Notes under the pieces: generated by a model
What the model saw: only the letters and a program-made list of their open reading frames with translations
Database searches by the model: none
Told to the model about the DNA's origin: nothing
NCBI GenBank assembly: GCA_946055515.1
Contig: CAMGGA010000008.1
Span: 1 to 32,881, forward strand
Reading direction: 5' to 3'
DNA length: 32,881 bases
DNA from: an uncultured Bacteroidales bacterium
GTDB lineage: Bacteria > Bacteroidota > Bacteroidia > Bacteroidales > Bacteroidaceae
Translations under genes and position numbers: made by a program
Part shown: positions 5,991-31,928 of the stretch, in pieces
How positions within the stretch are numbered: the first letter of the stretch is position 1
Layout: every line of letters starts with the position of its first letter

Positions 5991-6023
5991 CTGCTTCTTC
6001 TCTCCATCCCTTACCTCCGTTGT

Positions 6024-14118: not shown

Positions 14119-15285
14119 ATGCCTGTCAAGATATTAAGCGTAGACGATGAATTGGACCTGGAAATCCTGCTCACCCAGTATTTCCGAAGGAAGATACGCA
14201 AGGGAGAATATGAGTTCACCTTTGCCCATAACGGCCTGGAGGCCCTTCAGCTCCTCCTGGAGAAGAAAGATTTCGACATCATCCTGAGCGACATCAACAT
14301 GCCCGAGATGGACGGTCTGACCCTGCTCACCCGCATCAACGAGATGCGAGACCCCGCCCTGAAGTGCATCATGGTGTCGGCCTACGGCGACATGGAGAAC
14401 ATCCGCTCGGCCATGAACAACGGCGCTTTCGACTTCGCCACGAAGCCCATTGACCTCGACGACCTCTCGCGCACCATCGAAAAGGCCATCGAGCAAATCA
14501 ATTTCGTCAAGGAATCGCAATGTGAACACCGCCAGCTGGAGTCCATCAAGAGCGACCTTGCCATTGCAGGCGAAATCCAGCAGGCTATCCTGCCCCGCAA
14601 GTTTCCGCCTTTCCCCGCACTCAAGGCGCAGGTGGACATCTTCGCCTCGATGACGCCTGCCAAGGAAGTGGGCGGCGACTTCTACGACTTCTTCCAAATC
14701 GACGAGACCCACCTGGGCTTCGTCATCGCCGACGTGTCTGGCAAGGGCGTACCGGCCTCCCTCTTCATGGCCGTGAGCCGCACGCTGCTGCGCGCCACGG
14801 GGTTGCGCGGACTGCCTTCCCACGAGTGCCTGAACATTGTGAACAAACTGCTCTGCAAGGAAAGTCTCGACTCGATGTTCGTGACTGTCTTCTATGGCAT
14901 CTACAACCTCGAAACGGGTGAGATTGACTACACCAACGCAGGGCACAACCCTCCCTACGTGCTGAAGCACAACAACCAGGTGGAGGCCCTGCCCTTGTCG
15001 CAGAATTTCATCGTGGGCGTGTTCGACGATTTCGTCTACAAGAATGCGTCCCTCACGCTCGAGCCCGGCGATACCCTCGTGCTCTACACCGACGGCGTGA
15101 CCGAAGCCTTTAATCCCGAGAAAACGCAGTTTGGCGAGGCGGGCCTGGAGAAGACGCTCAAGAGCGTGCCCGGTGCCGGCAGCCAGGAAATCACGGAAGC
15201 CCTGCTCGAGGATATCCACGATTTTGCGGGCGATGAGCCCCAGAGCGACGACATCACTACGCTCATGATTAAACGATTGAAATAA
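14119..15285 (+). CDS. Response regulator receiver + PP2C/SpoIIE-type Ser/Thr phosphatase (RsbU/BtrU-like)
   Basis: REC domain 'ILSVDDE...DIILSDINMPEMDG...KPI'; PP2C 'PAKEVGGDFYDFFQID...IADVSGKGVPASLFMA...NAGHNPPY...LYTDGVTEAFN...SDDITTLMI'. Confidence 0.93.
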   Translation: MPVKILSVDDELDLEILLTQYFRRKIRKGEYEFTFAHNGLEALQLLLEKKDFDIILSDINMPEMDGLTLLTRINEMRDPALKCIMVSAYGDMENIRSAMNNGAFDFATKPIDLDDLSRTIEKAIEQINFVKESQCEHRQLESIKSDLAIAGEIQQAILPRKFPPFPALKAQVDIFASMTPAKEVGGDFYDFFQIDETHLGFVIADVSGKGVPASLFMAVSRTLLRATGLRGLPSHECLNIVNKLLCKESLDSMFVTVFYGIYNLETGEIDYTNAGHNPPYVLKHNNQVEALPLSQNFIVGVFDDFVYKNASLTLEPGDTLVLYTDGVTEAFNPEKTQFGEAGLEKTLKSVPGAGSQEITEALLEDIHDFAGDEPQSDDITTLMIKRLK

Positions 15286-15303
15286 TACTAACAGCGTACC
15301 TAT

Positions 15304-17160
15304 ATGACAGACAAATTCAAAACCTTTCAGCCTGCCAGCCCCATGCAGTTCGAGTTTACCGACCTCATCGCTGGCTACGTGAGCGACTTCAACGAAGGAG
15401 AAAAGACCTTCCGACTCACTACCTCCGACAAGCGCGTGTTCACCGTGGCACTGACCGACACGACCTTCGCCCGCTTGTTGCGCAACCTCGACGAGCCCTA
15501 TCAGGACGCTACGGGCAACCTCTACACATTCCTCTCGCAGGAGGGCCGCATGGCTTTCGTCTTTGGCATCTTCTACCCCCAACACGACGGCAACTATAGC
15601 TTCGAGGCCAAGCAAATTGACTTCCCCGAGCGCGAGCCCGGCAAGTTCCGCTTCGAAGAGTCGAACTGGTGGATCAACCAGGCCAAGAGCATCTGCAACT
15701 TCTTCGTGAATGCGCAGTTCGGTGACGGCGACATCAACTACGAGAAGTACCGCACCGCCGTGAGCCTCGGTGGCAAGCGCGAAGTGAACTCCTTCCGCCA
15801 GGAGACCGATACCATCTCGCGTATGATTTACGGTATGGCTTCTGCCTTCATGCTCACGGGTGAGGATATCTTCCTCGAAACAGCAGAGAAAGGCGTGGAA
15901 TATCTCAAGAAGCACATGCGTTTCTACGATGTGGACGAAAATGTGGTCTACTGGTACCACGGCATCGACATCGATGGCGACAAGGAGAAGAAAATCTTCA
16001 CATCAGAGTTTGGCGACGACTACGACGCCATCCCCATGTATGAGCAAATCTACGCCCTCGCCGGCCCCATCCAGACTTACCGCATCAATGGCGACCCCTC
16101 CATCCTGCGCGATGCCGAGCTGACCGTTGACCTCTTCGAACGCTTCTTCAAGGACAAGAAGGGCGAAGGCTATTATTCCCACATCGACCCCGTGATGCTC
16201 AGCCCCGACAGCAGCAGCCTCGGTCCCAACCGTATGCGCAAGAACTGGAACTCCGTGGGCGACCATGCTCCTGCTTATCTCATCAACCTCTATCTGGCCA
16301 CGGGCGAGGAGAAGTACAAGGACTTCCTCGAATATACGGCCGACACCATCACCTCGCACTTCCCCGACTACGAGAACAGTCCCTTCGTCAATGAACGCTT
16401 CATGGACGACTGGAGCCACGACCTCACCTGGGGCTGGCAGCAGGACCGTGCCGTAGTAGGCCACAACCTCAAGATTGCCTGGAACCTGATGCGTATCAAC
16501 AGCATCTGCCCGAAGCAGTCCTACGAAGAGTTTGCCGAACACATCGCCGAAGTCATGCCCAAGGTGGGTATGGACGTGCAGCGTGGCGGCTGGTACGACG
16601 TGATGGAACGCCGCCTCCACGAAGGACAGGAATACTACCGCTTCGCCTGGCACGACCGCAAGGCATGGTGGCAGCAGGAACAGGCCATCCTCGCCTACGA
16701 AATCCTCTACGGCATCCTCGGCAAGGAAGAATACCTGAAGTACGCCCGCGAATCCGCAGCCTTCTACAACACCTACTTCCTCGACCACGAAGACGGCGCC
16801 GTCTACTTCAACGTGCTCGCCAATGGCCTTCCCTACCTGCTCGGCACGGAGCGCAAGAAGGGTAGCCACTCCATGAGCGCTTACCACTCCGTGGAACTCG
16901 CTTACCTCGCAGCAACCTACACCAACCTGCTCAACACGAAGAAACCCCTCACCCTTTACTTCAAGCCGATGATCAATGGCTTCAAGGACAATGTGCTCCG
17001 CGTGCAGCCCGACATCCTGCCCGTGGGCAGCGTGACCATCAGCAAGGTGTGGATTGACGGTAAGGAGTGGAACCACTTCGACGCCGAGAAGCTCACCATA
17101 CAGCTTCCCGCCGTAGAATACCGCCCCAAAGTGAAGGTAGAACTCACCCCCAAAGGATAG
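15304..17160 (+). CDS. AGE (N-acylglucosamine 2-epimerase)-family (alpha/alpha)6-barrel protein
   Basis: 'RAVVGHNLKIAWNLMRI' and 'DRKAWWQQEQAILAYEILY' are AGE-family hallmarks; ~110 aa extra N-terminal region. Confidence 0.7.
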   Translation: MTDKFKTFQPASPMQFEFTDLIAGYVSDFNEGEKTFRLTTSDKRVFTVALTDTTFARLLRNLDEPYQDATGNLYTFLSQEGRMAFVFGIFYPQHDGNYSFEAKQIDFPEREPGKFRFEESNWWINQAKSICNFFVNAQFGDGDINYEKYRTAVSLGGKREVNSFRQETDTISRMIYGMASAFMLTGEDIFLETAEKGVEYLKKHMRFYDVDENVVYWYHGIDIDGDKEKKIFTSEFGDDYDAIPMYEQIYALAGPIQTYRINGDPSILRDAELTVDLFERFFKDKKGEGYYSHIDPVMLSPDSSSLGPNRMRKNWNSVGDHAPAYLINLYLATGEEKYKDFLEYTADTITSHFPDYENSPFVNERFMDDWSHDLTWGWQQDRAVVGHNLKIAWNLMRINSICPKQSYEEFAEHIAEVMPKVGMDVQRGGWYDVMERRLHEGQEYYRFAWHDRKAWWQQEQAILAYEILYGILGKEEYLKYARESAAFYNTYFLDHEDGAVYFNVLANGLPYLLGTERKKGSHSMSAYHSVELAYLAATYTNLLNTKKPLTLYFKPMINGFKDNVLRVQPDILPVGSVTISKVWIDGKEWNHFDAEKLTIQLPAVEYRPKVKVELTPKG

Positions 17161-17164
17161 CCGC

Positions 17165-17461
17165 ATGAATACAGAAGTGTATAAGGTGGGTGCAGTGCTC
17201 GACTCCTCCACCAGTAAGACCGAACAGCAAAACATTCTTGCCCTCCTCGACCAGGGCAAGAATGTAATTCTCGACCTCACGGAGTGTACCTACGTTTCCA
17301 GTGCCGGTTTGCGGGTGATGCTCTATGCCTACAAAGTGGCCGCTTCCAGCAAGCTCCAAGTGCTTTTGGTCGGCGTGTCAGACGAGGTGCGCGACGTGAT
17401 GAAAATCACAGGCTTTGCCCAATTCTTCAAATACTTCGACACGGTTGAAGATTGCAAATAA
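17165..17461 (+). CDS. STAS-domain anti-sigma-factor antagonist-like protein (1)
   Basis: 98 aa; 'NVILDLTECTYVSSAGLRVMLYAYKVA', 'LVGVSDEVRDVMKITGF'. Confidence 0.92.
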   Translation: MNTEVYKVGAVLDSSTSKTEQQNILALLDQGKNVILDLTECTYVSSAGLRVMLYAYKVAASSKLQVLLVGVSDEVRDVMKITGFAQFFKYFDTVEDCK

Positions 17462-17476
17462 CAAATAGGATAAACC

Positions 17477-19708
17477 ATGCAGAGAGTAGACCTCTTCCCA
17501 ACCCATGAGTTCGAGGGCTTGAAGCTGCGGGCAGGACGCCCCTATCCTTTCGGCGCCACGGTAATCGGCAATGCCGTGAACTTCTCCATCTATTCGCGCT
17601 ATGCCACGGCTTGTACACTCGTGCTCTTCCACAACCACGAGCACGAGCCCTTCGTGGAAATTCCTTTCTACAAAGAATTCCGCATCGGCAACGTGTTCTC
17701 CATGATGGTCTTCGACCTCGACTATGAGAACATCGAGTACGGCTTCCGCATGGATGGTCCGTTCAATCCGCAGGAAGGTCACCGTTTCGACAAGACCAAA
17801 ATCCTGATGGACCCCTATGCCAAGCTCATCGTGGGCCGCGATGTGTGGGGCACGCCGCCCGATTGGAATTGCCCCTATCAGTACCGCTCCCGTGTGGTAT
17901 TCGACGACTTCGACTGGGAAAACGACCAGCCCCTCGAAACCCCCGTGAACGACCTCGTCATCTACGAGATGCACGTGCGCAACTTCACCTGTGGCGCAGC
18001 TGCAGGCGTGGAGCATCCCGGAACCTTCGCCGGCATTGCAGAGAAAATCCCCTACCTCAAGGAGCTCGGCGTGAACTGTGTGGAACTCATGCCCATCCAT
18101 GAGTTTGACGAGTTTGAGAACAGCAAGCCTTCTCCCGTAGACGGCCACATGCTCTACAACGTCTGGGGCTACAGCAACGTGGGCTTCTTCGCCCCCAAGG
18201 CCGCCTACGCCTCCACGGGACGCTTCGGCATGCAGGTAGACGAACTGAAAAACCTCATCAAGCAGCTGCACGCCAACGGCATCGAAATCATCCTCGACGT
18301 CGTGTTCAACCACACCGCCGAAGGCAACGAGAACGGTCCGTACATTTCCTACCGCGGTATCGACAACAAGACCTACTACATGCTCACACCCGACGGCTAC
18401 TACTTCAACTTCAGTGGCTGCGGCAACACGTTGAACTGCAACAATCCCAACGTCCGCGACATGATAGTGGAGAGTCTTCGCTACTGGGTGACCGACTACC
18501 ACATCGACGGCTTCCGCTTCGACCTCGCCGCCATCCTCGGCCGCGACCAGAACGGCTGCCCCATGTCCAACCCGCCCCTCCTCGAGTCCCTGGCCCACGA
18601 CCCCATCCTGGGCAAGACCAAGCTCATTGCCGAAGCTTGGGACGCAGGCGGTCTCTACCAGGTAGGCTCCTTCCCCTCGTGGGGTCGCTGGGCCGAATGG
18701 AACGGAAAGTACCGCGATGCCATCCGCCGCTTCCTCAAGGGCGACGAGCACGTGTTGCAGGATGTCAAGGAGCGCCTGGTCGGTTCGCCCGACCTCTATG
18801 CCTCACAGAACCGCGGCATCAAGGCCAGCGTGAACTTCATCACGGCCCACGACGGCTTCACCCTGATGGACCTCGTGTCCTACAACGGAAAGCACAACGA
18901 AGCCAACGGCGAAGACAACCGCGATGGCGAGAACAACAACAACAGCTGGAACTGTGGCTGGGAAGGCGAATGTGACGACCCCGGCATCAACTTCCTACGC
19001 CACCAGCAAATCAAGAATGCCATTTCTCTCCTCATGGTGAGTCAAGGCATCCCCATGGTCCTCTCTGGCGACGAGATGGGCAACACTCAGTTTGGCAACA
19101 ACAACGCCTACTGTCAGGACAACGAGATAGGTTGGCTCGACTGGAACAATCTCGAGAAGAATGCCGACCTTTACCGCTTCTTCCGCCAGATTATCCGTTT
19201 CAGAAGACAGCACAAGGTGCTGCGCTACGAGTACCACCTCGGCTACTGCGACTTCCGCAACCTCGGGTATCCCGACATTTCCTGGCACGGCGTGAAGGCT
19301 TGGGAACCCGCTTCGGGCTACAACAACCTCACCCTCGCCTTCATGCTCAACGGCCGCTATGCCGAAACCGATGGCCAGCCCGACGACTTCATCTACGTGG
19401 CCATGAACATGCACTGGGAAATGCACGGCTTCGAACTGCCCCAGCTCCCCGAAGGCATGCAGTGGCACGTGTTTGCCAACACAGGCATGGCCTCGCCCAA
19501 CGACATCTGCGAGCCTGGCCGTGAATGCCTGGCCGAGAACCAGCACGAAATCCTCGTGGGCGGCCGTTCCATGATGATAATGGTCGGCAAGGCCCCAGCG
19601 CCCGTGGTGGAGGCAACTGTTCCTGAAAAGGATTCTTCGGAAAAGGAGACTTTGGAAAAGGAAACTCCTGCCAAGGAAGCCCCCGCCAAGGAAAGCAAGA
19701 AAAAGTAA
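17477..19708 (+). CDS. GH13 glycogen debranching enzyme / isoamylase (GlgX-type)
   Basis: Conserved regions 'DVVFNHTAEGN', 'GFRFDLAAILGRD', 'LIAEAWDAGG', 'NFITAHDGFTLMDLVSYN'; N-terminal CBM48-like 'GRPYPFGATVIGNAVNFSIYSRYA'. Confidence 0.93.
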   Translation: MQRVDLFPTHEFEGLKLRAGRPYPFGATVIGNAVNFSIYSRYATACTLVLFHNHEHEPFVEIPFYKEFRIGNVFSMMVFDLDYENIEYGFRMDGPFNPQEGHRFDKTKILMDPYAKLIVGRDVWGTPPDWNCPYQYRSRVVFDDFDWENDQPLETPVNDLVIYEMHVRNFTCGAAAGVEHPGTFAGIAEKIPYLKELGVNCVELMPIHEFDEFENSKPSPVDGHMLYNVWGYSNVGFFAPKAAYASTGRFGMQVDELKNLIKQLHANGIEIILDVVFNHTAEGNENGPYISYRGIDNKTYYMLTPDGYYFNFSGCGNTLNCNNPNVRDMIVESLRYWVTDYHIDGFRFDLAAILGRDQNGCPMSNPPLLESLAHDPILGKTKLIAEAWDAGGLYQVGSFPSWGRWAEWNGKYRDAIRRFLKGDEHVLQDVKERLVGSPDLYASQNRGIKASVNFITAHDGFTLMDLVSYNGKHNEANGEDNRDGENNNNSWNCGWEGECDDPGINFLRHQQIKNAISLLMVSQGIPMVLSGDEMGNTQFGNNNAYCQDNEIGWLDWNNLEKNADLYRFFRQIIRFRRQHKVLRYEYHLGYCDFRNLGYPDISWHGVKAWEPASGYNNLTLAFMLNGRYAETDGQPDDFIYVAMNMHWEMHGFELPQLPEGMQWHVFANTGMASPNDICEPGRECLAENQHEILVGGRSMMIMVGKAPAPVVEATVPEKDSSEKETLEKETPAKEAPAKESKKK

Positions 19709-19742
19709 AAAGAGAATACAAACGCTTCAAACATTCACAATA

Positions 19743-20054
19743 ATGGACAACCAATTTCAAGTAAAGCTCGATGGCGACACTTTGACCATCGTTCTGGGCG
19801 AACAGCTCACCACGACCAATGCACCCGCCCTCATGGACGAACTCAACAACTACAAGGACAAGGGCGTGGCCAAGGTAGTGTTCGACGCAAGCCAGCTCAC
19901 CTACATTGCAAGTAGCGGCATCCGCACCATCATCTTCGCAAAGCAGAAGCTCGGCGGCAATCCCGAAATCGATTTCGTAAACTGCTCTGCCGACGTGCGC
20001 AGCGTGTTTGAAATGACGGGCTTGCAGAACTACATCAACTTTGTAAGCAAATAA
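19743..20054 (+). CDS. STAS-domain anti-sigma-factor antagonist-like protein (2)
   Basis: 103 aa; 'KVVFDASQLTYIASSGIRTIIFAKQKLG...DVRSVFEMTGLQNYINF'. Confidence 0.92.
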   Translation: MDNQFQVKLDGDTLTIVLGEQLTTTNAPALMDELNNYKDKGVAKVVFDASQLTYIASSGIRTIIFAKQKLGGNPEIDFVNCSADVRSVFEMTGLQNYINFVSK

Positions 20055-20065
20055 ACCCCAGCGCC

Positions 20066-20476
20066 ATGCCGTCATTGCATTACCAACCCATTGCAGGCAA
20101 GGCCGAGGAAATCATCGATGCCATCCTCCAGACCCCGGAGGTGGCATCGTGTTCCCGCGAACTCTTCGCCATCCATCTGGTGTGTGAGGAGCTGGTGGTC
20201 AATGTCGTGAGCTACGCCTATCCCCCGTCCGAGGAGGGCTATCTCCACGTCGACATCGACAAGTCCGACGGTGTGCTTACCATCCGCTTCACCGACGGAG
20301 GCGTTGCCTTTGACCCGCTCGGGAAGGAAGACCCCGATTTGAACCTGCCGCCCGAGGAGCGTCCCATCGGCGGTTTAGGCATCTTCTTGACCAAGCAGAT
20401 GATGGACGAGGTGGACTACCACCGCGTGGCGGACGAGAACGTTTTAACCATCAAAAAGAAAATATCCCAGGAATGA
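20066..20476 (+). CDS. Anti-sigma-type Ser kinase, HATPase_c (RsbW/BtrW-like)
   Basis: 'HLVCEELVVNVVSYAY', 'RFTDGGVAFDPLGKEDPDL', 'IGGLGIFLTKQMMDEVDYHRV..NVLTIKK'. Confidence 0.92.
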   Translation: MPSLHYQPIAGKAEEIIDAILQTPEVASCSRELFAIHLVCEELVVNVVSYAYPPSEEGYLHVDIDKSDGVLTIRFTDGGVAFDPLGKEDPDLNLPPEERPIGGLGIFLTKQMMDEVDYHRVADENVLTIKKKISQE

Positions 20477-21036
20477 AACACAAGATAGGCATTCTCATAG
20501 AAAGCGATTTCTACGAAAACGAAATCTTCTACTATCAGTTCCGCTTCCAGGAGGCCGGCTACGAAGTCCACTTCCTCTCGCGCCTTTGGGGTTGCGACAG
20601 CATCACCTTCTCCGGCCACGAGCTGCGCGCCCCCTTCCGCTGCGACGAAAGCTTTGAGGCCCTCGACGACGCGGCCCTCGACGACTATGCCGCCATCATC
20701 GTGCCCGCCGGCATGGTTTCCGACCGTTTGCGCTACACCGAGGACGTCACCAAGTTGCCCCCCGCCTGTGCGTTCATGAAGCGCGTGTTTGCCCGCAAGG
20801 ACATTGTGAAAGGCGTCATCTGCCATGGCCTCTGGCTTCTCTCCCCCATTGCCGAAGTGGTGAAGGGCCGCAAAATGACCGTCCACAACAACCTGCTCGG
20901 CGATGCGAAAAACTACGGCGTGGACTACGTCAATGAAGACGTGGTCGTAGACGGTGACCTCGTTTCGGCCCGCACGGGCGGCCACTGCTACCTCCTGGCC
21001 TCGCACATTCTGAAAACGATAGGGGACAACAAGTAA
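20473..21036 (+). CDS. DJ-1/PfpI-family protein (2)
   Basis: Overlaps the previous stop (ATGA); 'KIGILIESDFYENEIFYYQFRFQEAGYEV', 'AAIIVPAGM', nucleophile elbow 'VICHGLWLLS', 'VVKGRKMTVHNN'. Confidence 0.9.
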   Translation: MKHKIGILIESDFYENEIFYYQFRFQEAGYEVHFLSRLWGCDSITFSGHELRAPFRCDESFEALDDAALDDYAAIIVPAGMVSDRLRYTEDVTKLPPACAFMKRVFARKDIVKGVICHGLWLLSPIAEVVKGRKMTVHNNLLGDAKNYGVDYVNEDVVVDGDLVSARTGGHCYLLASHILKTIGDNK

Positions 21037-21074
21037 GCCCCCCCCCCGCCTCCCCCCCCCACAGCATAATCTCC

Positions 21075-22685
21075 ATGCAGATGAATACAAAGCAAGCCCT
21101 CCAAAGGCTGAGACACGGATTAAGACTGGCAACAAGCCTGCTGCTCGCAGCGGGCTTGTTGGCCAGTCTTGCCCGTATAGGCCAACTGAAGAAAGAGCGC
21201 GATGAACTCCAGGCCCGCCTGCGCCTGCTCGAAGACAAAGAGAGCGGATCGTACATCGTGGAGCGCATCAGCAAGCAGATGGAAGACATCGCCTACCAGC
21301 AGAAGGACATCTCCGACAAGCAGCGCGAAGAAGCCGTGTTCCAGATGGGAGTGGCAGAGAATATGCGAAAAAAGGCTGAGGCCGAACAGTCCCGGGCCAA
21401 CGAGGAAAAACAGCGGGCACAAGCCTATGCCCAGAATGCAGCCGAGGCGCGCAACATGGCCGAGCACCAGCGCAGCATGGCCGAAGAACAGCGAGAAATG
21501 GCCGTCATCCAGCAGCGCCTGGCCGAGAACGCCCGCAACACGGCCGACACACTCAGCTACGTGGCGATGGGCCGCTCCCTGGCCTCCCTCTCCCTCATGC
21601 AGCACCAAGGGGGAAACTACGACATCGCCTCCCTGCTGGCCTACAGCTCCTGGAAGTTTACCAGCGACTACCGCGGCAACCTCTTCTTCCCCGCCGTGTT
21701 CAATGCCCTGATGGAAAACAGCGGCTGCTACGAGACCGTCAAGCTCTTCAAGGGCGGCATCTCCCGCATCGTGCCCCTCCCCGCGGGCGGTTTCGCCTCG
21801 GTCAGCCGCTATGGCGAGATGGCCCGCTGGAGCTACAGTGCCACCGGCGTGCACAGCCAGCTGCTCCTCTCCGACCCCTCGTTTGACTTCCGCGACCTCC
21901 ACGCCGACAACTCTGGCCAGCTCTATGCGCTCGACTACAACGGCCGCCTCGTCGTGGTCTCCCCCAATGGCGAAAAGACCGAAAGGCTCCTGCCCGTCCC
22001 GAGCGGCTGGAAGTCCATCCACCCCATAGCGCCCCACAAGCTCCTCCTCGTTTCCGACCGCACCTATTGCTTCTACGACACCCGGCAAGGCATCGTCGAA
22101 GCAAGCCACGACTTCCCGCAGCCCGTTAGTTGTATCGGCCGCTTCAACGGCGCTCTCTATGCCTTCGGGGAAAAAGATGGCCTTTGGCAAATCGACAGCG
22201 AAGGCCAGCTCCACGTCGCCCCGCGCCATGTTGGCCAGCACGTCACCGCCTTTGCCTGCGACGCCGAGAACCGCCACACAGCAGTCGGCACCGACCAGGG
22301 CAACCTATTCATCGTGAACCTCGACGGCGAAGTCACCCAGCGTTTGGCGGGCCACCGCTCCCGCATCACCCAGTTGGCCTTTGTCGGCAACTACCTCATC
22401 TCCTCGAGCTACGACGGCGACCTGAAGCTGCTCAACCTCAGCGCGGGGAAGTTCGAACCCCTCACCCTCCACAGTTTCCCCGCTTGGGTGCATTGCTTCT
22501 ACATGTCTCCTGACAACATCCTCTGGGCCGGCGACGAAAACGGTTCGCTCTCGCGCCTGGTCGTCTCCCCCAACGGCATGGCCGAACTTATCCGCCAAAA
22601 CCTCAAGCGCGACTTCACCGACGAGGAGTGGAACTACTACTTCGGCAGCGGCGTGCCCCGTTCGAAACTCCTTCTCTTCCCCTAA
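21075..22685 (+). CDS. Membrane-anchored coiled-coil plus WD40/beta-propeller-like protein
   Basis: N-terminal TM 'RLATSLLLAAGLLASL'; long E/Q/A/R-rich coil (21190-21560); propeller-like repeats 'GHRSRITQLAFVGNYLISSSYDGDLKLLNLSAG'. Confidence 0.75.
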   Translation: MQMNTKQALQRLRHGLRLATSLLLAAGLLASLARIGQLKKERDELQARLRLLEDKESGSYIVERISKQMEDIAYQQKDISDKQREEAVFQMGVAENMRKKAEAEQSRANEEKQRAQAYAQNAAEARNMAEHQRSMAEEQREMAVIQQRLAENARNTADTLSYVAMGRSLASLSLMQHQGGNYDIASLLAYSSWKFTSDYRGNLFFPAVFNALMENSGCYETVKLFKGGISRIVPLPAGGFASVSRYGEMARWSYSATGVHSQLLLSDPSFDFRDLHADNSGQLYALDYNGRLVVVSPNGEKTERLLPVPSGWKSIHPIAPHKLLLVSDRTYCFYDTRQGIVEASHDFPQPVSCIGRFNGALYAFGEKDGLWQIDSEGQLHVAPRHVGQHVTAFACDAENRHTAVGTDQGNLFIVNLDGEVTQRLAGHRSRITQLAFVGNYLISSSYDGDLKLLNLSAGKFEPLTLHSFPAWVHCFYMSPDNILWAGDENGSLSRLVVSPNGMAELIRQNLKRDFTDEEWNYYFGSGVPRSKLLLFP

Positions 22686-22700
22686 ATCCCACCCTCCGCC

Positions 22701-25697
22701 ATGACCCGCAACCTCCTGCTGCTCCTCCTGTTGAGCCTCCTGTCCATGTTCCCGAAAGCCAGTGCCGTCCCCACCCGCGGCATCCCCTTCTTCGTGAACT
22801 ATGCGCCCTCCGACTACAGAGCGCACAACCGCAACTTCGACGTCATCACCGACGGCGCGGGGCGCGTGTATGTGGCCAACTTCGAGGGCCTGCTCTACTA
22901 CGACCAGACACAGTGGCACACGGTCCACACCCCGGGCATCTTCCGCGTCACCCGCCTCTTCCAGGCCAGTGACGGACGCATCTGGGTGGGCGGCTTCAAC
23001 CTCTTCGGCTACCTCGAGGCAGGGCCCCAGGGACGGCTCGCTATCCATTATGTCTTTTCCAAAAACAACAAAGGCTTCATCGGCGAAGTCACAGCCATCG
23101 GCGAAGAAAAAGGCCGCATCTGGCTCGAAACCTCCATCGGCACGCGCGGCCTGGAAGACCAGTCGATGAAAGGCTTCGAAGTGCGTGCTGCCGAGGTCCG
23201 CCAGCCCGAGCTGTACAAAGGCTTCAGAATCAACCAGAAGCTCCAGGCCCCCGACGGCTCCACGCTCCTCGCCACCGCCGGCAGCGGCCTGGTGCTGCTC
23301 GATGCCGAGGGGCGCGAACGCTACTGCCTCTCGGGGCGCAACGGCCTCTGCGACAACAACGTCAATGCCATCCACCTCGACGCCAACTCCAACGTGTGGG
23401 GCGCCACGGACAACGGCGTGTTCCTCGTGAACATCAAGTCCTCCTTCACCCACTTCGGCGAGACCGAGGGCCTCAGCGGCGACGTGCAGGCCATAGCCCA
23501 TTCAGCCACCGAAGGACTCTACGTCGGCACCCTGCGCGGCCTCTTCCACAAGCAGCCCGAAGGCAACTTCAGCCGTGTCCAGGGCATAGACTATGCCTGC
23601 TGGAACATCCAGGCCGATGCCCGTGGCGGCGTGTTGGCCTGCACCGCGGGCGGCATCTACAAGGTGCAGGGCAACCGGGCCACCCTGCTCAGGAGCGGCC
23701 ACACCCTCTTCGTCCACCCCGCCCCCGATGGCGGCTACTACACGGCAGAGATCGACGGCGTCTACCTCAACCGCGGCACCGCGCACACCCGGTTGAACAC
23801 CATAGAGAAAGGCGTGAGAATGTTTACCGACAAGCACGGCGCGCTTTGGGTGAACAACATCTACGGTCAGATATTCCGTTGCACAGGCGCGATGAAAGCC
23901 CTCCACCGCATCGTTCCGAAGGGAAAGGACGGCAAGGGCGAAGTCTACAAGAACACCATGTTCCAGTACCAGGGCGAAATCTACGTGCTCAGCCGTGCCG
24001 GCCTCTTCCACTGGGATGAAGCGCGGCAACAGCTCCGCCCCTCCGATGCGGGCAACCTCTGGGCCAGCGTGAGCCAATACCCCCAGCTCGTCTCCCCCGA
24101 TGCCGCCCGGCGCATCTGGCTCACCGACAACGAAGGGAAGAACCTCCACGCCATCAGCGGCGAAACCGACTGCTCCCGCCTCAACGCCGCCCTCCACCCC
24201 CTGCGCAACTACGAGGTCCGCGCCGTCGAGGCCGAAGGCCACAACCTCTGGGTAGGCTGGCAAAACGGCGTCGTGCTCTGGGACTTCTCCCACGTCAATC
24301 CCCGCAGCGTCCCCCTCAACAAAGCCTACTACCGCCGCATCGTGCTCAACCGCGACTCCGTCGTCTGGGGCGGGTTCAGCTGCGAGGGTCACACCCTCGG
24401 TGCCCGCATGCCCTTTGACGAACTCACCTTCGACAACGATGTCCGCGAAATCGCCCTCTACTTCTCCACCGACTTCATCCCCTCGCTCGGCGACACCGAA
24501 TACCGCTACCGCCTCTCCGAGAGCGAGCCCTGGTCCGCCTGGACCACCGACAATGCCGTCCACTTCGTCAATCCCCGTCCTGGCAGCTACCGCATGGAAG
24601 TCGAAGTGCGCGACCGCTACGGCCGCATCTCCTCCATGGAGCCGTTGAGCCTCACCGTGCGCTATCCCGTCTACCTCCGTTGGTACAGCCTTGTAGGATA
24701 TGCCGCCCTCCTTGCCCTCCTCGTCTTCCTCCTCATCCGTTGGCGCATGCACCGCCTCCTGAAGGAGACCGAGCGCCTCGAAGGCATCATCCAGGAGCGC
24801 ACCTCCCAGATACTTTGCCAGAAAGAAGAAATCGAGGAAAAGTCCAAAAACCTCGAGCAGGCCCTCGACTGCCTCACCAAGACGCAGTACCAACTTGTGC
24901 GCCAGGAGAAGATGGCCACCGTCGGTACCCTCACGAAGGGCCTTGTGGATCGCATCCTCAACCCCATGAACTATGTGAACAACTTCTCCCACATGAGCCT
25001 CGGCCTCGTCAAGGATCTCAAGCAGAACCTCGACGACGCCAAGGACGCCATGGAAGAAGACCTCTACGAAGACTCCGCCGACATCATCGACATGCTCTCC
25101 ACCAACCTCCGGAAGATTGAGGAGCACGGCGTCAACACCTCCCACATCCTCAAGGCCATGGAGGAAATGCTGAAAGAGCGCACGCCGAACTTCTCGCCCA
25201 CCGACCTGGCCGCTGTATGCCGGAAGAACATCGAGATGCTCCGTTCCTACTACGCCAAGGAAATCGCCGAGTGCCACGTCACCCTCACCGCACCCGACCC
25301 CGACATGCTCATCGTGGCCGAAATCGACGCCGACCAGGTGAGCCGCACCATCATGAGCATACTCGCCAACAGCGTCTATGCCCTCCGCAAGAAATACCGC
25401 CAGCAGCCCTTCGAAGCCCGGCTCAGCCTCAACCTCAGGGTAGAGGACCGGAAAGTCTGCGTGTGCATCCACGACAACGGCATCGGCATCGAGGACACCA
25501 TCATCGACCACATCTTCGACCCCTTCTTCACCACGAAGACAACGGCCGAGGCCGTGGGCGTGGGACTCTACATCAGCCGCGAAGTCATCCTCAACCACGG
25601 CGGCGACATCCGCGTGAAATCGGAGAAAAACGAGTACACCGAGTTTGTCATCACCCTCCCCGTGCAGCAGCAAGCCAACCAGACCCGCGAGGCATAG
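22701..25697 (+). CDS. Two-component propeller sensor histidine-kinase-like protein (Reg_prop repeats + Y_Y_Y + HATPase_c), Asp at the phosphoacceptor position
   Basis: Signal 'NLLLLLLLSLLSMFPKASA'; propeller motifs ('GRIWVGGFNLFGYLE', 'NSNVWGATDNGVFLV'); TM 'LVGYAALLALLVFLLIRW'; 'VGTLTKGLVDRILNPMNYV'; HATPase 'DNGIGIEDTIIDHIFDPFFTTK...VGVGLYI'. Confidence 0.9.
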   Translation: MTRNLLLLLLLSLLSMFPKASAVPTRGIPFFVNYAPSDYRAHNRNFDVITDGAGRVYVANFEGLLYYDQTQWHTVHTPGIFRVTRLFQASDGRIWVGGFNLFGYLEAGPQGRLAIHYVFSKNNKGFIGEVTAIGEEKGRIWLETSIGTRGLEDQSMKGFEVRAAEVRQPELYKGFRINQKLQAPDGSTLLATAGSGLVLLDAEGRERYCLSGRNGLCDNNVNAIHLDANSNVWGATDNGVFLVNIKSSFTHFGETEGLSGDVQAIAHSATEGLYVGTLRGLFHKQPEGNFSRVQGIDYACWNIQADARGGVLACTAGGIYKVQGNRATLLRSGHTLFVHPAPDGGYYTAEIDGVYLNRGTAHTRLNTIEKGVRMFTDKHGALWVNNIYGQIFRCTGAMKALHRIVPKGKDGKGEVYKNTMFQYQGEIYVLSRAGLFHWDEARQQLRPSDAGNLWASVSQYPQLVSPDAARRIWLTDNEGKNLHAISGETDCSRLNAALHPLRNYEVRAVEAEGHNLWVGWQNGVVLWDFSHVNPRSVPLNKAYYRRIVLNRDSVVWGGFSCEGHTLGARMPFDELTFDNDVREIALYFSTDFIPSLGDTEYRYRLSESEPWSAWTTDNAVHFVNPRPGSYRMEVEVRDRYGRISSMEPLSLTVRYPVYLRWYSLVGYAALLALLVFLLIRWRMHRLLKETERLEGIIQERTSQILCQKEEIEEKSKNLEQALDCLTKTQYQLVRQEKMATVGTLTKGLVDRILNPMNYVNNFSHMSLGLVKDLKQNLDDAKDAMEEDLYEDSADIIDMLSTNLRKIEEHGVNTSHILKAMEEMLKERTPNFSPTDLAAVCRKNIEMLRSYYAKEIAECHVTLTAPDPDMLIVAEIDADQVSRTIMSILANSVYALRKKYRQQPFEARLSLNLRVEDRKVCVCIHDNGIGIEDTIIDHIFDPFFTTKTTAEAVGVGLYISREVILNHGGDIRVKSEKNEYTEFVITLPVQQQANQTREA

Positions 25698-25754
25698 CCC
25701 CGTCCCGCAGTCCCCATTCACCGAATACTATCCACCCCCATACAATCCAGAGAC

Positions 25755-26585
25755 ATGGAAGCGCTCAATTCACGCATACAGCAACTGCAAGACCAAGTGA
25801 AGCAACAGGAGAAGCTGGCATCGCTCGGCATGCTCACAGCCGGCATCGTCCACGAAATACGCAACCCGCTCAACTTCGTCATCAATTTCAGCAAACTCTC
25901 CAAGGGCCTGCTCAAGGACCTCGAGGACGACCTCGCCGCCAACGAGCAGGCCATCGACGCCGAAGACCTCGAGGACATCCGCGACATCATGGCCTCCCTC
26001 GCCGAGAACCTGCAGAAGATACAGGAACACGGCGACCGCGCCGTCAGCATCATCCAGAACATCCTGCTCTACTCCCGCGGCAAGGAAGACGAGTTCATCC
26101 CCACCGACATCTGCAAGCTCGCCAAGGAATACGTCTGGCTCTCCTACCACGCCATGCGTGCCAACTACCCTGGCTTCAACATCAGCGTCGAGGAGCGCTA
26201 CGCCGAGGGCCTCCCCCTTGTGGAAGTCATCCCGCAGGACTTGAGCCGCGCCATCCTCAACGTCATGAACAACGCCTGCTACGCCGTGTGGGAGAAGACC
26301 CAGACCGCCCCCGCCGACTACAAGCCCAGCGTGCGTGTCAGCGTCGAAATCCGTGGCGAACAGTGCGCCATCACCATAGCCGACAACGGCAAGGGCATGA
26401 CCGACGAAGTCAAGCAGAAAATATTCCAGAGCTTCTTCACCACCAAGCCCATCGGCCACGGCACGGGCCTTGGCATGTCCATCACCCGCGACATCATCGA
26501 GCACAAACACCACGGCCACATCGAGTTCGATGCCGTCGAGAACGAAGGAAGCCAGTTCACCCTCTTTATCCCTTTGAAGAAATGA
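25755..26585 (+). CDS. Soluble histidine kinase
   Basis: H-box 'LASLGMLTAGIVHEIRNPLNFV', N-box 'NVMNNACYAVW', 'ADNGKGM', 'FQSFFTTKPIGHGTGLGMSITRDII'; no TM or sensor domain seen. Confidence 0.93.
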   Translation: MEALNSRIQQLQDQVKQQEKLASLGMLTAGIVHEIRNPLNFVINFSKLSKGLLKDLEDDLAANEQAIDAEDLEDIRDIMASLAENLQKIQEHGDRAVSIIQNILLYSRGKEDEFIPTDICKLAKEYVWLSYHAMRANYPGFNISVEERYAEGLPLVEVIPQDLSRAILNVMNNACYAVWEKTQTAPADYKPSVRVSVEIRGEQCAITIADNGKGMTDEVKQKIFQSFFTTKPIGHGTGLGMSITRDIIEHKHHGHIEFDAVENEGSQFTLFIPLKK

Positions 26586-28951
26586 GATTCATCCTCCTCC
26601 TGCTCTGCCTCCTCTGTGGCGGTCGCGTATGGGCCCAGGAAAACCTGGAGATACAGCGTTGCATGGCGGCCGAAGAATACTACCGTACAGGTCAGTTTTC
26701 CAAGGCCGAAGCCCTGCTCGCCACGGGCATCGACACCCTTTCCGACCGTGCCCGGGTCGAAGCCCTGCGCGTCATGACACTGTGCTGCATGGCCCAGGAC
26801 CGTGACGCGGAAGCCACGCGCTATGCCTCCCGTCTGCTCAACGCCTCGCCCTACTTTACCCCCGGCCTTTCCGACCCGCCCCGCTTTGCCGACCTCATCG
26901 AGCAACTCAAGGCGGGCCGCGGGAGCACCATCATCACGGCCTCGCAGCAGGCCGAGTCGGTCGAAGAAGCCCCGATGCCCGTCACCCTCATCACGCAGGA
27001 AATGATCCGTGCCTCGGGAGCCCGCAACATCAAGGAAGTGCTGCTCGCCTTCGTGCCCGGCATGACCGAAGTGGCCTCCAACGAGGAGTACAACATCGCC
27101 ATGCGCGGCATCTATTCAGCAGGGCAGGAGAAAATCCTCTTCATGCTCAACGGCCATCGCCTCAACAGCTATTCGACCAACACCGCCGTGCCCGACTACA
27201 GCATCGGCATCGACAAGGTCAAGCAAATCGAAGTGCTGCGCGGCCCCGCCTCCTCGCTCTACGGCGGCGCCGCCCTCACCGCAGCCGTCAATATCATCAC
27301 GCAGGACGGCCGCGACACGGATGGCCTGAAGCTGGCTGCGGGAGCGGGCAACTACGGGCAGGTCACTGCCAGTGCCCAGCTTGGCCAGCGCTTTCTCGAG
27401 GGCGACCTCTTTGCCTGGGCCTCCTACTACGAGGCCACGGGGCAGGAAGTCGAAATCCCTGCCGACCAGCAGCGGGGCCACTATCCCGTGCCCGGCACCA
27501 TCACCCTGGGCGGTTTCAACAAGAAACCCACCTACGAGTGTGGCCTCCAGATTTCCCTGAAGCGCTTCTCCTTCCTCTACGACACCTCCTACAGCAAGTA
27601 TGTCGCCCCCTATTCGATGAACTCTTTCTTCGCGCCCTATTCCTACGGGAAATACCGCACCTTCAACGGCATGGGCCCGGGCTACGGAAAGCTCAGCAAC
27701 CACTTCGAAGCCTCCTGGCTCATGGGCAAGGACGACTTCACCGTCAAGGCCACCATCAACTACGAAACCGAAGAGCAGGCCCGCTACCAGATTGCCAACG
27801 ACACCATCCCCTACTACTTCGGCATGTCGGCCACTCCCCCGGGCACCGACGAACCCATCACTGTGACGAAGGGCGTGTTCCAGTATCTGAAGTGGCAGGA
27901 GTACACCCTCGGGGCTTCGCTCCATGCCAACTACAACTACCGCCTCAACGCCCTCGGCCGGGGTACCATCAGTTTCCGCGCCGAGGCGAACCGCTTCCGC
28001 ATGAACGACTCCTACTATGTCGAGGGCGACCAGTTCAACCGCGTGCTCGTCACCTACGACAACTCCAAAAACCTCCTGACCGGCTCGGAAACCTCGGCCA
28101 ATGCCTACCTGCAGTTCAAGCACCGCTTCAGCGACCTGTTCCTTCTGAACTGCGGCATGCGCTACGACTACAAGAAGCGGAGCTCGGGCAAGGAAATCAA
28201 CGAGTTCTCGCCGCGTATGGCCTTCGTATTCTTGCAGCCAAAGTGGAGCCTGAAGCTGAGCTACTCGCGTTCCTACGTTGATGCGCCCTATTTCTACCGC
28301 AACAACACGCTCGACAACTTCCTCGCCTGGGAAGACATGCGTTCTGAGTATCTCCACTCCCTCCAGCTGACTTTCATGGGCAACCGCCTGTGGCCTCACT
28401 GGAACTTCGAGGCCAACGTCTACTACAATGTGGCCGAGAACCTCATCACCCAAAGCATTTTCGCTTTCACCAATTCCGACCAGATGCAGAACCTCGGCAC
28501 TGAAGTCCAGGCGTCCTATCAGGACAAGCGCTTCAGCTCCTGGCTCACACTCTCGTGGCAGCACTTGGTGAAGACGCGCGACTTCAGCCCTTTGGCAGCC
28601 AACGCCCCGTCCTACAATCTGCCCGAACTCACGGCCCATTGGGTGGCCTCCTACCGCTTGTTCCGGAACTTCAGTCTGAACACGCACCTCCAGTTCCTTT
28701 CGGCGCAAAAGTCGCTGTATGCCAGTTTCTACTACGACGAGCAGGGCGTGCTTGGCATAGCGAAGAACGAGCTCGACGTGCCCGCCCGCATAGTGTGGGA
28801 TGCCGGGGCACAGTTCGACTACAAGCGCTTTGGGCTGGAACTGCAAGTACACAACCTACTGAACAAAAAATACGAACAAGGCGGCACCAGCTATGCCCCA
28901 ATCCGACAAGAGGGCCTCTGGTTCACCGCAAAAGTGAAATACAAGCTCTAA
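26582..28951 (+). CDS. TonB-dependent receptor-like outer-membrane protein with TPR-like N-terminal extension
   Basis: ATG at 26582 overlaps the kinase stop (ATGA); signal 'MRFILLLLCLLCGGRVWAQ'; plug 'APMPVTLITQEMIRASGARNIKEVLLAFVPGM...IDKVKQIEVLRGPASSLYGGAALTAAVNIIT'; barrel to 'GLWFTAKVKYKL'. The ORF-track start (25217) is an out-of-frame run through the kinase genes. Confidence 0.9.
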   Translation: MRFILLLLCLLCGGRVWAQENLEIQRCMAAEEYYRTGQFSKAEALLATGIDTLSDRARVEALRVMTLCCMAQDRDAEATRYASRLLNASPYFTPGLSDPPRFADLIEQLKAGRGSTIITASQQAESVEEAPMPVTLITQEMIRASGARNIKEVLLAFVPGMTEVASNEEYNIAMRGIYSAGQEKILFMLNGHRLNSYSTNTAVPDYSIGIDKVKQIEVLRGPASSLYGGAALTAAVNIITQDGRDTDGLKLAAGAGNYGQVTASAQLGQRFLEGDLFAWASYYEATGQEVEIPADQQRGHYPVPGTITLGGFNKKPTYECGLQISLKRFSFLYDTSYSKYVAPYSMNSFFAPYSYGKYRTFNGMGPGYGKLSNHFEASWLMGKDDFTVKATINYETEEQARYQIANDTIPYYFGMSATPPGTDEPITVTKGVFQYLKWQEYTLGASLHANYNYRLNALGRGTISFRAEANRFRMNDSYYVEGDQFNRVLVTYDNSKNLLTGSETSANAYLQFKHRFSDLFLLNCGMRYDYKKRSSGKEINEFSPRMAFVFLQPKWSLKLSYSRSYVDAPYFYRNNTLDNFLAWEDMRSEYLHSLQLTFMGNRLWPHWNFEANVYYNVAENLITQSIFAFTNSDQMQNLGTEVQASYQDKRFSSWLTLSWQHLVKTRDFSPLAANAPSYNLPELTAHWVASYRLFRNFSLNTHLQFLSAQKSLYASFYYDEQGVLGIAKNELDVPARIVWDAGAQFDYKRFGLELQVHNLLNKKYEQGGTSYAPIRQEGLWFTAKVKYKL

Positions 28952-28955
28952 ACCA

Positions 28956-31472
28956 ATGCTTGACTTACTGACAGCTAACGACTATTTTACAGACAATACG
29001 GTGCGGCAGGCCAGCAAGACCGCCGTCATCGTTTCCGACAAATACTATACGTTCGACCAGCTCGACTGGCGCGCCAGCCAGTTCATCGCGCTCATTCAAG
29101 AGCAGGAATGCAGGCTGGGACTGAAAGTGGCGCGTGTGGGCCTCCATCTCCCCAAGAGTTTCGATGCCGTGGCCGCCATCTGGGCCTGCCTGAAAAGAGG
29201 GTGGTGCTTCGTTCCCCTCGTGCCCGAACTTCCCGCCGACCGCTTGCGCTTCATGGCCACGGACAGCGGTGTGGACCTCGTGCTCACGAATGCGCCCGAA
29301 GCGGCCACCTGGAGCCAGCTTCCCGTGTGCCACACCGATGAAGACACGGCCTTCGGTACCCAAGCAGCCAATCAGGCCGATGTGGAGAAGTCCGACAGCC
29401 AGACAGCCTACGTAATCTACACCTCGGGCAGCACGGGCCAGCCCAAGGGCGTGCCCATCAGTTTCGGCAATCTCGCCCATCTCATCCAGACTGCCGCTCG
29501 CCCCGACGTCTTCGACATCCGCGAAGACAGCATCTTCCTCAACTTCGCCAGCCTCAGTTTCGATGCCTCCATCATCGAACTCATCCCCGTGCTCGCCGTC
29601 GGGGGTACCGTTGTGGTCGCCACCGAAAGCGACCGCCACGACCTGCGCCGCCTGCAGGACCTCATCCGCCACTACGGCGTGACCCACGCGGCCTTCACCC
29701 CTTCGCTCACGGCCCTCTTCGCCAATCTCCGTTTCCCTTCGCTCCGCAAACTCATCATCGCAGGCGAGAAAATGCTCCCCGCCATCCAGCGCATGGCGAG
29801 CACCCAGCCCTTCGACCTCATCAATGGCTACGGCCCCACGGAGAATACCGTCATGGCCACCTTCGCCGTGGTCCGCGAGGGGCAGAGCCTGCAGTGCATC
29901 GGTCGCCCCACGCCGGGAACGGTAGCCCATGTGCTCGACGTGGACAGCCTGGAGCCCGTGGCCCTGGACGAGGTGGGCGAACTCTGCATCGGAGGCCGCC
30001 AGCTCACGGTGGGCTACATCAACCGCCCCGAACTCAATGCCGCCTGCTTCTTCGACAATCCCTTCGACGACCGCCCTGTGGCGCCGCGGCTCTACCACAC
30101 GGGCGACATGGTGCGCCTGCTTCCCGACGGCAACCTGGAGTACGTGGGCCGCATCGACGACCGTGTGAAGTACAACGGTTACCGCATCGAACTCCAGGAA
30201 ATCGAGCGCGTCGTCGAGCAGTCGCCAGCCGTGGTGCAGGCCTGCGTGAGCCTCGAGCAGCAAGGCAGCGGACAGCAGCTCACGGCCTACGTGAAGCTCG
30301 ACAGCGGCGACGACCGTGTGCTCGCCGAAGTGAAGCGCCGCGCTGCCGCCTTCCTGCCCGAATTCATGCGTCCCTCGCGGTGGGTGGCCGTCGAAGACTT
30401 TCCCCAGAACATCCATGGTAAAATCGACAAGCAACAACTGTCCCGCCTGGCCACTCTCCCGGCCACGGCGGAGGGCCGCTATGCCTGCGCGGCGGAGGAA
30501 CTCGTGGCCGAAGTGATAGCCCATCTCGTGGGCCGCGAAAGCATTGATCCCGAGGCCGACCTCTTCGACGAAGTAGGCCTCACCTCGCTCCAGGCGATGC
30601 AAGTGCCCTTCCACCTCGAAGTGTCGGGCCTGCACTACGTCATCGACGACCTCTATAAGCACCGCACCGTGCGCCGCATGGTCGAAAACCACATGGTGAA
30701 GCGGGGGTGGTGGTACAACGAGCCAGCAGCGGGCAAGCCCGTCCTCGTCGTGGTGAGCGGCTACACGAGCTTCACGCTGGTGTTCGGCGCCATGGCCCGT
30801 GCCCTTGCCGACAGTTATGCCATCTACGTCATAGAGTCGTACCACGACTACCCCGATGCGCTCACCGTCTCGTGCGACGTGCTCACGGATTCCTATATGG
30901 AACTCCTGCGCCCCATTGCCGAGACTCACGGCGTGGCGGTGATTACGGGCTTTTGCGTGGGCGGTGACATCGCGCTGGCTACGGCCATCAAACTCTCTGC
31001 ACAAACGGGCGTGGCCCCCCACGTCGTTTCGCTCGACGGCGAGATAGACCGCAACGTCGATCCCGAGAAGGACATCCCCGTCTACTTCGACATGCTTTCG
31101 CCCGAAATGAACCGCCGCCGCATCGCACGCGACCGTGCCATCGTGGGCACGATGGACCTCCACGGCTATTCTGGCCCCATTACCGCCATTCTTTGCGCCC
31201 GCCGCTTGACTGACTACCAGCCTTTCGCCACACAAACGGAAATCACCGATGAACAGGTGCGCTGGATGAATGAATATTTCGACCGCGCTCCCCGCTGGTG
31301 GAAGGAGGCATACCCCGACTGCACGCTGCGCTTCGTCGATGCCAACCACGACACGATGTTCTCGCGCCCCGAGTCGAGGGGGCCCATGTTCCAGTATTTC
31401 CTCTCCCTCGTGGGCAAGGAAAAGCCCGAATTGGATGTATTCCACTTCGTCGACGGGCGGATTGAATGTTGA
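28956..31472 (+). CDS. NRPS-like single module: adenylation - carrier protein - thioesterase/alpha-beta hydrolase
   Basis: A3 'AYVIYTSGSTGQPKGVPIS', A5 'NGYGPTENTV', A7/A8 'YHTGDMVRLLPDGNLEYVGRIDDRVKYNGYRIELQEIE', A10 'HGKIDKQQL'; PCP 'DLFDEVGLTSLQAMQ'; TE 'VITGFCVGGDIALATA' and C-terminal 'DANHDTMF'. Confidence 0.93.
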   Translation: MLDLLTANDYFTDNTVRQASKTAVIVSDKYYTFDQLDWRASQFIALIQEQECRLGLKVARVGLHLPKSFDAVAAIWACLKRGWCFVPLVPELPADRLRFMATDSGVDLVLTNAPEAATWSQLPVCHTDEDTAFGTQAANQADVEKSDSQTAYVIYTSGSTGQPKGVPISFGNLAHLIQTAARPDVFDIREDSIFLNFASLSFDASIIELIPVLAVGGTVVVATESDRHDLRRLQDLIRHYGVTHAAFTPSLTALFANLRFPSLRKLIIAGEKMLPAIQRMASTQPFDLINGYGPTENTVMATFAVVREGQSLQCIGRPTPGTVAHVLDVDSLEPVALDEVGELCIGGRQLTVGYINRPELNAACFFDNPFDDRPVAPRLYHTGDMVRLLPDGNLEYVGRIDDRVKYNGYRIELQEIERVVEQSPAVVQACVSLEQQGSGQQLTAYVKLDSGDDRVLAEVKRRAAAFLPEFMRPSRWVAVEDFPQNIHGKIDKQQLSRLATLPATAEGRYACAAEELVAEVIAHLVGRESIDPEADLFDEVGLTSLQAMQVPFHLEVSGLHYVIDDLYKHRTVRRMVENHMVKRGWWYNEPAAGKPVLVVVSGYTSFTLVFGAMARALADSYAIYVIESYHDYPDALTVSCDVLTDSYMELLRPIAETHGVAVITGFCVGGDIALATAIKLSAQTGVAPHVVSLDGEIDRNVDPEKDIPVYFDMLSPEMNRRRIARDRAIVGTMDLHGYSGPITAILCARRLTDYQPFATQTEITDEQVRWMNEYFDRAPRWWKEAYPDCTLRFVDANHDTMFSRPESRGPMFQYFLSLVGKEKPELDVFHFVDGRIEC

Positions 31473-31496
31473 CAAATCTTCCCAACATCTACATTC

Positions 31497-31928
31497 ATGG
31501 TAAACTATACCCTTCACCACATTGGTTATGTCGTGGCCGACATGGAGGCTTCGACCCGCGTGTTTCAGCAGCTCGGCTACGCGGCGGGCCCCGTGCTCCG
31601 CGAAGAAGCGCTCAGCGTGGACCTGCGCTACTTTGAGAAGGACGGTGAAACGCCCGTGGAACTGGTGCTGCAATACAATCCCGACTCGCCCGAACAGTTG
31701 CTGCTCGCCAAGAACGGCCCGATGCCCTACCACCTCTGCTACCGCGTGGACCACATGGAGGAGGCCGTGGCCGACCTCGAGGCTAAGGGCTTTGTCCGCC
31801 TCTTCGACCCGCTCCCCGTGGGCGTGCTGCAGGGCCAGCTGATTTGCTATCTGAGCCATCCCGCTATGGGATTGGTCGAACTGCTCGCCGTGGCATCCTC
31901 TCCCCAGATACCTTCATTCAAGGCATAG
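31497..31928 (+). CDS. VOC (glyoxalase/methylmalonyl-CoA epimerase-like) family protein
   Basis: 'LHHIGYVVADMEASTRVFQQLGY', 'VELVLQYNPDSPEQLLLAKNGPMPYHLCYRVDHMEEAVADLEAKGF', 'GLVELL'. Confidence 0.85.
   Translation: MVNYTLHHIGYVVADMEASTRVFQQLGYAAGPVLREEALSVDLRYFEKDGETPVELVLQYNPDSPEQLLLAKNGPMPYHLCYRVDHMEEAVADLEAKGFVRLFDPLPVGVLQGQLICYLSHPAMGLVELLAVASSPQIPSFKA

Follow-up and report, generated by a model that had tools for sequence, protein, structure and literature searches.

The window, by which we mean the whole 32,881-nucleotide stretch of uncultured Bacteroidales DNA analysed here, encodes a propeller sensor related to histidine kinases in which Asp stands in place of the phosphoacceptor His. 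Judged from aligned sequences, this observation is correct and general across relatives, all of which carry Asp followed by Arg (a D-box) where ordinary kinases have His followed by Glu (an H-box). The D-box protein probably serves a split two-component system as its sensory subunit, dead as a kinase, and it probably belongs to the same pathway as the adjoining soluble H-box kinase and a REC-SpoIIE response regulator encoded upstream.

A kinase-like sensor with Asp at the phosphoacceptor site

The D-box protein is laid out as a signal peptide, a periplasmic propeller, one transmembrane helix, a coiled coil, and DHp and CA domains, with the signal peptide and the transmembrane helix assigned by eye. 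The features of this protein and of its neighbour are as follows.

22701..25697, + strand: D-box sensor, putative pseudokinase, 998 aa (open reading frame and translation)
24681..24740, + strand: predicted transmembrane helix, residues about 661-680, hydrophobic stretch WYSLVGYAALLALLVFLLIRW (by eye)
24939..24974, + strand: D-box GLVDRILNPMNY where an H-box is expected; G747, D, R, L753, N, P, N757 and Y are invariant in 150/150 relatives
24948..24950, + strand: GAT codon of Asp750, at the phosphoacceptor His position (codon and translation)
25326..25667, + strand: CA (HATPase_c) domain, which keeps the second N-box Asn, G1, the F box and most of G2 (Pfam, alignment)
25356..25358, + strand: AGC codon of Ser886, at the first N-box Asn (alignment)
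25755..26585, + strand: soluble H-box histidine kinase, 276 aa (Pfam HisKA and HATPase_c; translation)
25851..25853, + strand: CAC codon of His33 of this kinase (codon and translation); the motif HE[IV]xNP is kept in orthologues

A sequence-only reading of this DNA had proposed Asp for the phosphoacceptor His in the propeller protein and an ordinary His in the downstream paralogue. Both codons bear this out, with Asp750 lying within GTLTKGLVDRILNPMNYV and His33 within GMLTAGIVHEIRNPLNFV. The two proteins are paralogues (32% identity over 277 aa, E 1e-40). Pfam finds Reg_prop and HATPase_c (4e-19) in the 998-aa protein and HisKA only in the neighbouring kinase, and neither a sensor domain nor a transmembrane helix was seen in the 276-aa kinase by translation and Pfam. 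The same reading had taken the ATP-binding motifs of the sensor to be intact, which holds for G1, the F box, the second N-box Asn and most of G2, but not for the first N-box Asn, replaced by Ser886, nor for the first Gly of the G2 box, which is Ala951.

The kinase core predicted by AlphaFold resembles HK853, ZraS and DivL, and is closest to HK853 and ZraS; the model has a good core and low global confidence (pLDDT 78, pTM 0.56), and the arrangement of domains is uncertain. Asp750 falls in a predicted helix with no acidic pocket of the REC type. A family-specific salt bridge between D750 and Arg815 was considered and dropped, as Arg occupies the same position in 44 H-box kinases too.

Conservation and distribution of the Asp-Arg box

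Relatives were identified by profile score, which gave 150 non-redundant D-box proteins from three families and one more (L307) from another class. Among 271 aligned non-redundant kinase cores (150 with Asp at the site, 119 with His, 1 with Gln and 1 cut), all cores that score at least 300 bits have Asp and all that score 251 bits or less do not, a gap that makes the grouping of relatives independent of the residue itself. The phosphoacceptor site is D in 150/150 of the Asp set versus H in 119/119 of the other set, and the +1 position is R in 150/150 versus E in 119/119; the 151st relative, L307, also has Asp-Arg. At the box, the 150 relatives use both Asp codons and the full set of six Arg codons, and because synonymous codons vary, the identity of the pair points to selection and not to recent copying. 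Fixation of Asp goes beyond what mere loss of His explains.

The sequence-only reading had allowed that orthologues might all have His; the comparison found Asp in every relative. A sequencing error, an isolated mutation or a decaying pseudogene might be suspected in a window that comes from an incomplete draft genome (76% complete), but this explanation is rejected by the orthologues and is vanishingly improbable, given that Asp is fixed in 151 relatives from two classes with synonymous codon variation and that the reading frames are open.

A match to the D-box protein occurs in 20 of 301 sampled genomes of the window's GTDB family, counting the window's own genome and one match (G235) on a contig fragment that lacks the kinase region; the protein was not found in the 20 congeners listed. 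By profile search, the protein also occurs in a Cytophagales family (49 of 223 genomes) and in another Bacteroidales family (42 of 125), where the order-level names are those read from named loci. Named carriers include Prevotella MAGs, Dyadobacter alkalitolerans and Spirosoma endophyticum. Class- and phylum-wide samples yielded few further D-box proteins, with one in a genome of another class (G1126), and the family occurs in two classes of one phylum.

Residues lost and kept

The kinase activity of HisKA kinases depends on H and H+1 and their phosphatase activity on H+4, and HisKA proteins changed at either of the first two positions are kinase-dead (PMC3510030). The phosphoacceptor His and the H+1 acid of active HisKA kinases are both absent from the D-box family, and the N-box of the window protein does not hold both Asn; a HATPase_c domain with G1 and F boxes is present. 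The first N-box Asn is gone in 89 of 150 D-box proteins (N 61, S 57, H 11, G 10, A 4, Q 3, C 2, R 2) versus none of the H-box kinases (N in 119/119), and the position is Glu, read by eye, in L307. Kept in 150/150 D-box proteins are the H+4 Asn, the Pro, the second N-box Asn, the G1 Asp and the F box Lys. The Thr or Asn at H+4 that characterises HisKA-type phosphatases is thus present, always as Asn, and together with Asp750 it gives a D-x-x-x-N spacing. The second N-box Asn is a metal ligand in other kinases (PMC10017428).

Four further positions in DHp helix 1, +7 Asn, +8 Tyr, +11 Asn and +12 Phe, are invariant in 150/150 D-box proteins; they lie on the helix face that meets the response regulator in other kinases, and are expected to face it here. 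The helical hairpin is 52 residues long in 145/150 D-box proteins and in 94/119 H-box kinases. In the second DHp helix, all 150 D-box proteins have His809; at this position the H-box kinases have a mixture of Asn and His, 50 of them having the equivalent His with the normal His retained. The Tyr found at the His site in the DivL family is absent, as all relatives have Asp, and the D-box relatives group with kinases of the window's own phylum.

These sequence patterns support the earlier suggestion that the sensor is a pseudokinase: the acceptor His, the H+1 acid and, in 89/150, the first N-box Asn are missing, and the assignment of D-box proteins as kinase-dead appears well supported. The combination of losses and retentions would fit a kinase-minus, possibly phosphatase-plus protein. 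In CrdS, the H371A and E372A changes abolish kinase activity and spare the ability to dephosphorylate the regulator; the E372A form is, in vivo, dominant to the wild type (PMC3510030). A His at H+1 goes along with loss of the N-box Asn, an example being the phosphatase DrBphP (PMC8292422).

Genomic context and the partner kinase

All genes from the REC-SpoIIE regulator (14119) through a VOC protein (31497) lie on a single strand with short gaps. Those that bear on the pathway are listed below.

14119..15285, + strand: REC-SpoIIE (PP2C) response regulator, proposed output of the kinase pair (Pfam Response_reg and SpoIIE)
14290-14292, + strand: codon of the phospho-acceptor Asp58 of REC-SpoIIE (REC domain)
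17165..17461, + strand: STAS protein A, 98 aa (anti-sigma factor antagonist superfamily TIGR00377, above cut-off)
19743..20054, + strand: STAS protein B, 103 aa (Pfam STAS)
20066..20476, + strand: RsbW-like HATPase_c_2 protein (Pfam HATPase_c_2; weak RsbW/SpoIIAB matches below cut-off)
21075..22685, + strand: coiled-coil/WD40-like protein, directly upstream of the D-box gene (weak WD40-type matches)
26582..28951, + strand: TonB-dependent receptor plug protein, a frequent downstream neighbour (Pfam Plug; orthologous loci)

A PP2C phosphatase, STAS proteins and an RsbW-like kinase, the components of a partner switch, are thus encoded together in the window. No sigma factor or other target of the switch was identified among the window genes scanned with Pfam. 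The REC active-site Asp, Ser and Lys are invariant in 94/94 loci. Within clades, the REC domain is far more conserved than the PP2C domain attached to it (divergence 0.13-0.21 versus 0.28-0.43), as if REC had several binding partners.

In the family of the window the gene order is REC-SpoIIE, WD40-like, D-box and H kinase, usually followed by the TonB receptor, with the WD40-like gene in the same place in most orthologous loci. In a second family (f2), the D-box protein is often small and without a propeller, and STAS, RsbW-like, D-box, H kinase and REC-SpoIIE genes are contiguous in that order. The order of D-box, H kinase and REC-SpoIIE with STAS and RsbW genes contiguous is found in L163, L164, L271, L276 and L307, and the last of these, from another class, has the same five genes as the f2 block. 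Two other parts of the window may be mentioned. A single-module NRPS-like A-PCP-thioesterase protein (28956-31472) follows the kinases together with the TonB receptor in many relatives, and four successive open reading frames of 410-502 aa (1777-7256) have zero Pfam matches.

By automatic count, 116 of the 150 D-box genes have an H kinase next to them on their own strand. Of the other 34, about 14-15 can be put down to contig ends, removal of duplicate copies, tandem D-D-H arrays or, in one instance, an inverted order, and about 19-20, in Cytophagales, look like true singletons; both of the two smaller-type singletons that were scanned are TPR proteins. Strict co-occurrence of the two proteins was considered as a rule, and it fails in some Cytophagales. 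In five genomes of one Cytophagales genus (L233, L238, L193, L195 and L197), the H kinase and REC-SpoIIE are both gone and the propeller D-box protein stays, and in a sixth genome of the genus all three are present. That the two are lost together speaks for the H kinase and REC-SpoIIE forming a pair, and the persistence of the D-box protein shows that it can have other uses. Some f2 genomes (L135, L211, L216 and L218) have tandem D-box pairs followed by one H kinase and REC-SpoIIE. In one locus (L266:3131-4054, genome G962), the partner kinase has Gln for His (AQEIHNP), which could be an error or a second pseudokinase.

Signalling of the sensor through the adjoining kinase, as the sequence-only reading had suggested, is likely. 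Adjacency in 116/150, congruent D and H clades and a sensorless neighbour favour it, but the lone Cytophagales proteins do not fit. Direct action on the response regulator would accommodate the retained residues at least as well.

Origin and probable transfer

In a tree of 84 cores the Asp set falls on one branch (SH-aLRT 99), and it does so again (98) in a second tree with the box region removed and L307 added; both trees are quick ones without bootstraps, and their root was set by an H-box outgroup. The topology would need only a single change to the D-box. His is taken as the ancestral state, since ordinary H-box relatives, which carry HEIQNPLNFVNNFS, occur widely in the class. The window's pair clusters with the pairs of two genomes, G168 and G966, the latter from another family, in both halves of the tree, and G966 shares the block of neighbouring genes (14119-31928), with isoamylase at 90%, DJ-1 at 87% and STAS at 80%. 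The block was not found in the congeners listed, and it seems that the whole cluster passed from one family to another in one piece, by horizontal transfer.

L308 has a single dCache/HAMP H kinase beside REC-SpoIIE, RsbW and STAS genes, and in both L308 and L309 one ordinary sensor H kinase adjoins REC-SpoIIE. This gene order suggests that the D/H pair replaced a single kinase, in which case these two loci would likely represent the arrangement before the split.

Proposed function and alternatives

So, what might a histidine kinase without its His do? The propeller protein would read a periplasmic signal and be unable to autophosphorylate, and the adjoining soluble kinase would supply phosphoryl groups to Asp58 of REC-SpoIIE. 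On sensing its signal, the D-box protein would lower or gate phosphorylation of the regulator, and the PP2C domain would dephosphorylate the STAS antagonists to set an RsbW-type partner switch. The mechanism that we prefer, tentatively and at somewhat less than an even chance, is that the D-box protein acts as a phosphatase on REC. It would be a signal-gated brake that takes phosphate off the regulator, possibly also through contact with the H kinase, a reading that we favour because the H+4 Asn is kept and kinase residues are lost. A bolder extension, which we consider possible and hold more loosely, is that a bifunctional histidine kinase was split into a sensorless kinase and a sensor phosphatase that gates a REC-PP2C partner switch. 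In that case the family would consist of dedicated phosphatases derived from histidine kinases, in whose active site the exchange of His for Asp and of Glu for Arg would have produced the D-x-x-x-N acid-amide pair. Histidine kinases that act through REC-PP2C on STAS proteins have precedents in RsfSR and RsbKY, in which the sign of the effect differs (PMC10950880), and we therefore claim no sign here.

Several observations count against the phosphatase reading. The H+4 Asn-Pro is universal in the aligned H-box relatives, and its retention may be structural. Phosphatase activity is absent from DivL, another kinase-dead histidine kinase (PMC4211667), and PleC H610A is without either activity. Lone D-box proteins exist in Cytophagales, among them those of the five genomes that lost both the H kinase and REC-SpoIIE. 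The chief alternative, which we rate a little below the phosphatase, is an allosteric heterodimer. In it, the D-box protein, joined to the H kinase by DHp helices that are homologous in the two, would switch the autophosphorylation of that kinase without being an enzyme itself. The DHp-CA cores are paralogous, the helical hairpins are equal in length, the H kinase is sensorless, and the correlation of D and H distances persists after correction for REC-SpoIIE (partial 0.67). There are also precedents, as DivL modulates CckA (PMC12189002) and the paralogous kinases ChrS and HrrS heterodimerise (PMC9491836). However, such a heterodimer leaves the invariant H+4 Asn and regulator-facing residues unexplained and has to accommodate stand-alone D-box proteins, and tests of co-divergence within clades (DHp, CA, REC and PP2C) gave no clear D-H signal, in a setting where the expected contact of H kinase and REC itself reached only 0.09-0.20. 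These tests did not separate contact of the D-box protein with the kinase from contact with the regulator.

The invariant N, Y, N and F on the regulator-facing helix would also suit a reader in the manner of DivL, which binds phosphorylated REC-SpoIIE or another regulator and relays its state to the H kinase without catalysis. DivL is among the structural matches, and the slow divergence of REC relative to PP2C would agree with such binding. We nevertheless consider this improbable, as DivL binds ATP weakly versus the invariance of most ATP-site residues in the D-box family, and the residue (Tyr) and the sensor differ. The same ATP-site retention (second N-box Asn, G1, F box and most of G2) could serve a CA domain that phosphorylates the partner's His in trans, but the first N-box Asn is lost in 89/150 and the H-box kinases have complete sites themselves (119/119), which makes this very hard to credit. 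It is just as doubtful that the phosphoryl group is carried by Asp750 or, as the sequence-only reading had allowed for another His, by His809. Both are invariant in 150/150, but Asp750 sits in a predicted helix and not in a REC-type acidic pocket, the H+1 general base is Arg, and His809 is shared with the 50 H-box kinases that keep their normal His.

Comparison with known systems

The elements of the proposal are already known singly, as pseudo-histidine kinases, phosphatase-biased histidine kinases and chains of histidine kinase, REC-PP2C and STAS proteins. In the open-access literature searched we found no family of histidine kinases with Asp for His, no Asp-Arg family paired with a sensorless kinase and no REC-SpoIIE system of Bacteroidota. 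In the D-box family, kinase residues are relaxed, those of phosphatase function and of the ATP site are kept, and an active partner kinase mostly lies alongside. Whether a bifunctional kinase can be divided into kinase and sensor-phosphatase chains, and what role an Asp at the phosphoacceptor position has, are questions testable here in small proteins. The findings also suggest that the H-box should be inspected before every propeller sensor of Bacteroidota is labelled a kinase.

As proposed here, a histidine kinase controls a REC-PP2C phosphatase for a STAS antagonist in RsfS-RsfR of Mycobacterium and RsbK-RsbY of B. cereus, but those systems have one ordinary sensor kinase, no D-box partner and a known sigma factor. 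CheZ and the HisKA_3 kinase NarX have a D-x-x-x-Q phosphatase motif in which acid and amide are spaced as in the D-x-x-x-N found here; the amide is Gln, and the resemblance is in spacing only. DrBphP, a bacteriophytochrome phosphatase, has likewise lost the H+1 acid and the N-box Asn and needs its H+4 residue for regulator dephosphorylation, but it has His at H+1 in place of the Arg found here and Glu at H+4, and the part of its source available to us describes no partner kinase. The kinase-minus, phosphatase-plus state of CrdS E372A and H371A resembles a natural D-box, but these are laboratory mutants and not a natural family. DivL of Caulobacter also combines a histidine kinase fold that lacks the phosphoacceptor His with a separate active kinase, and matches structurally, but it has Tyr and not Asp, senses through PAS domains, binds ATP weakly and acts with DivK and CckA. 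Few pseudo-histidine kinases have been studied, DivL being an example, and the D-box proteins add a natural family in which Asp-Arg has taken the place of His-Glu throughout.
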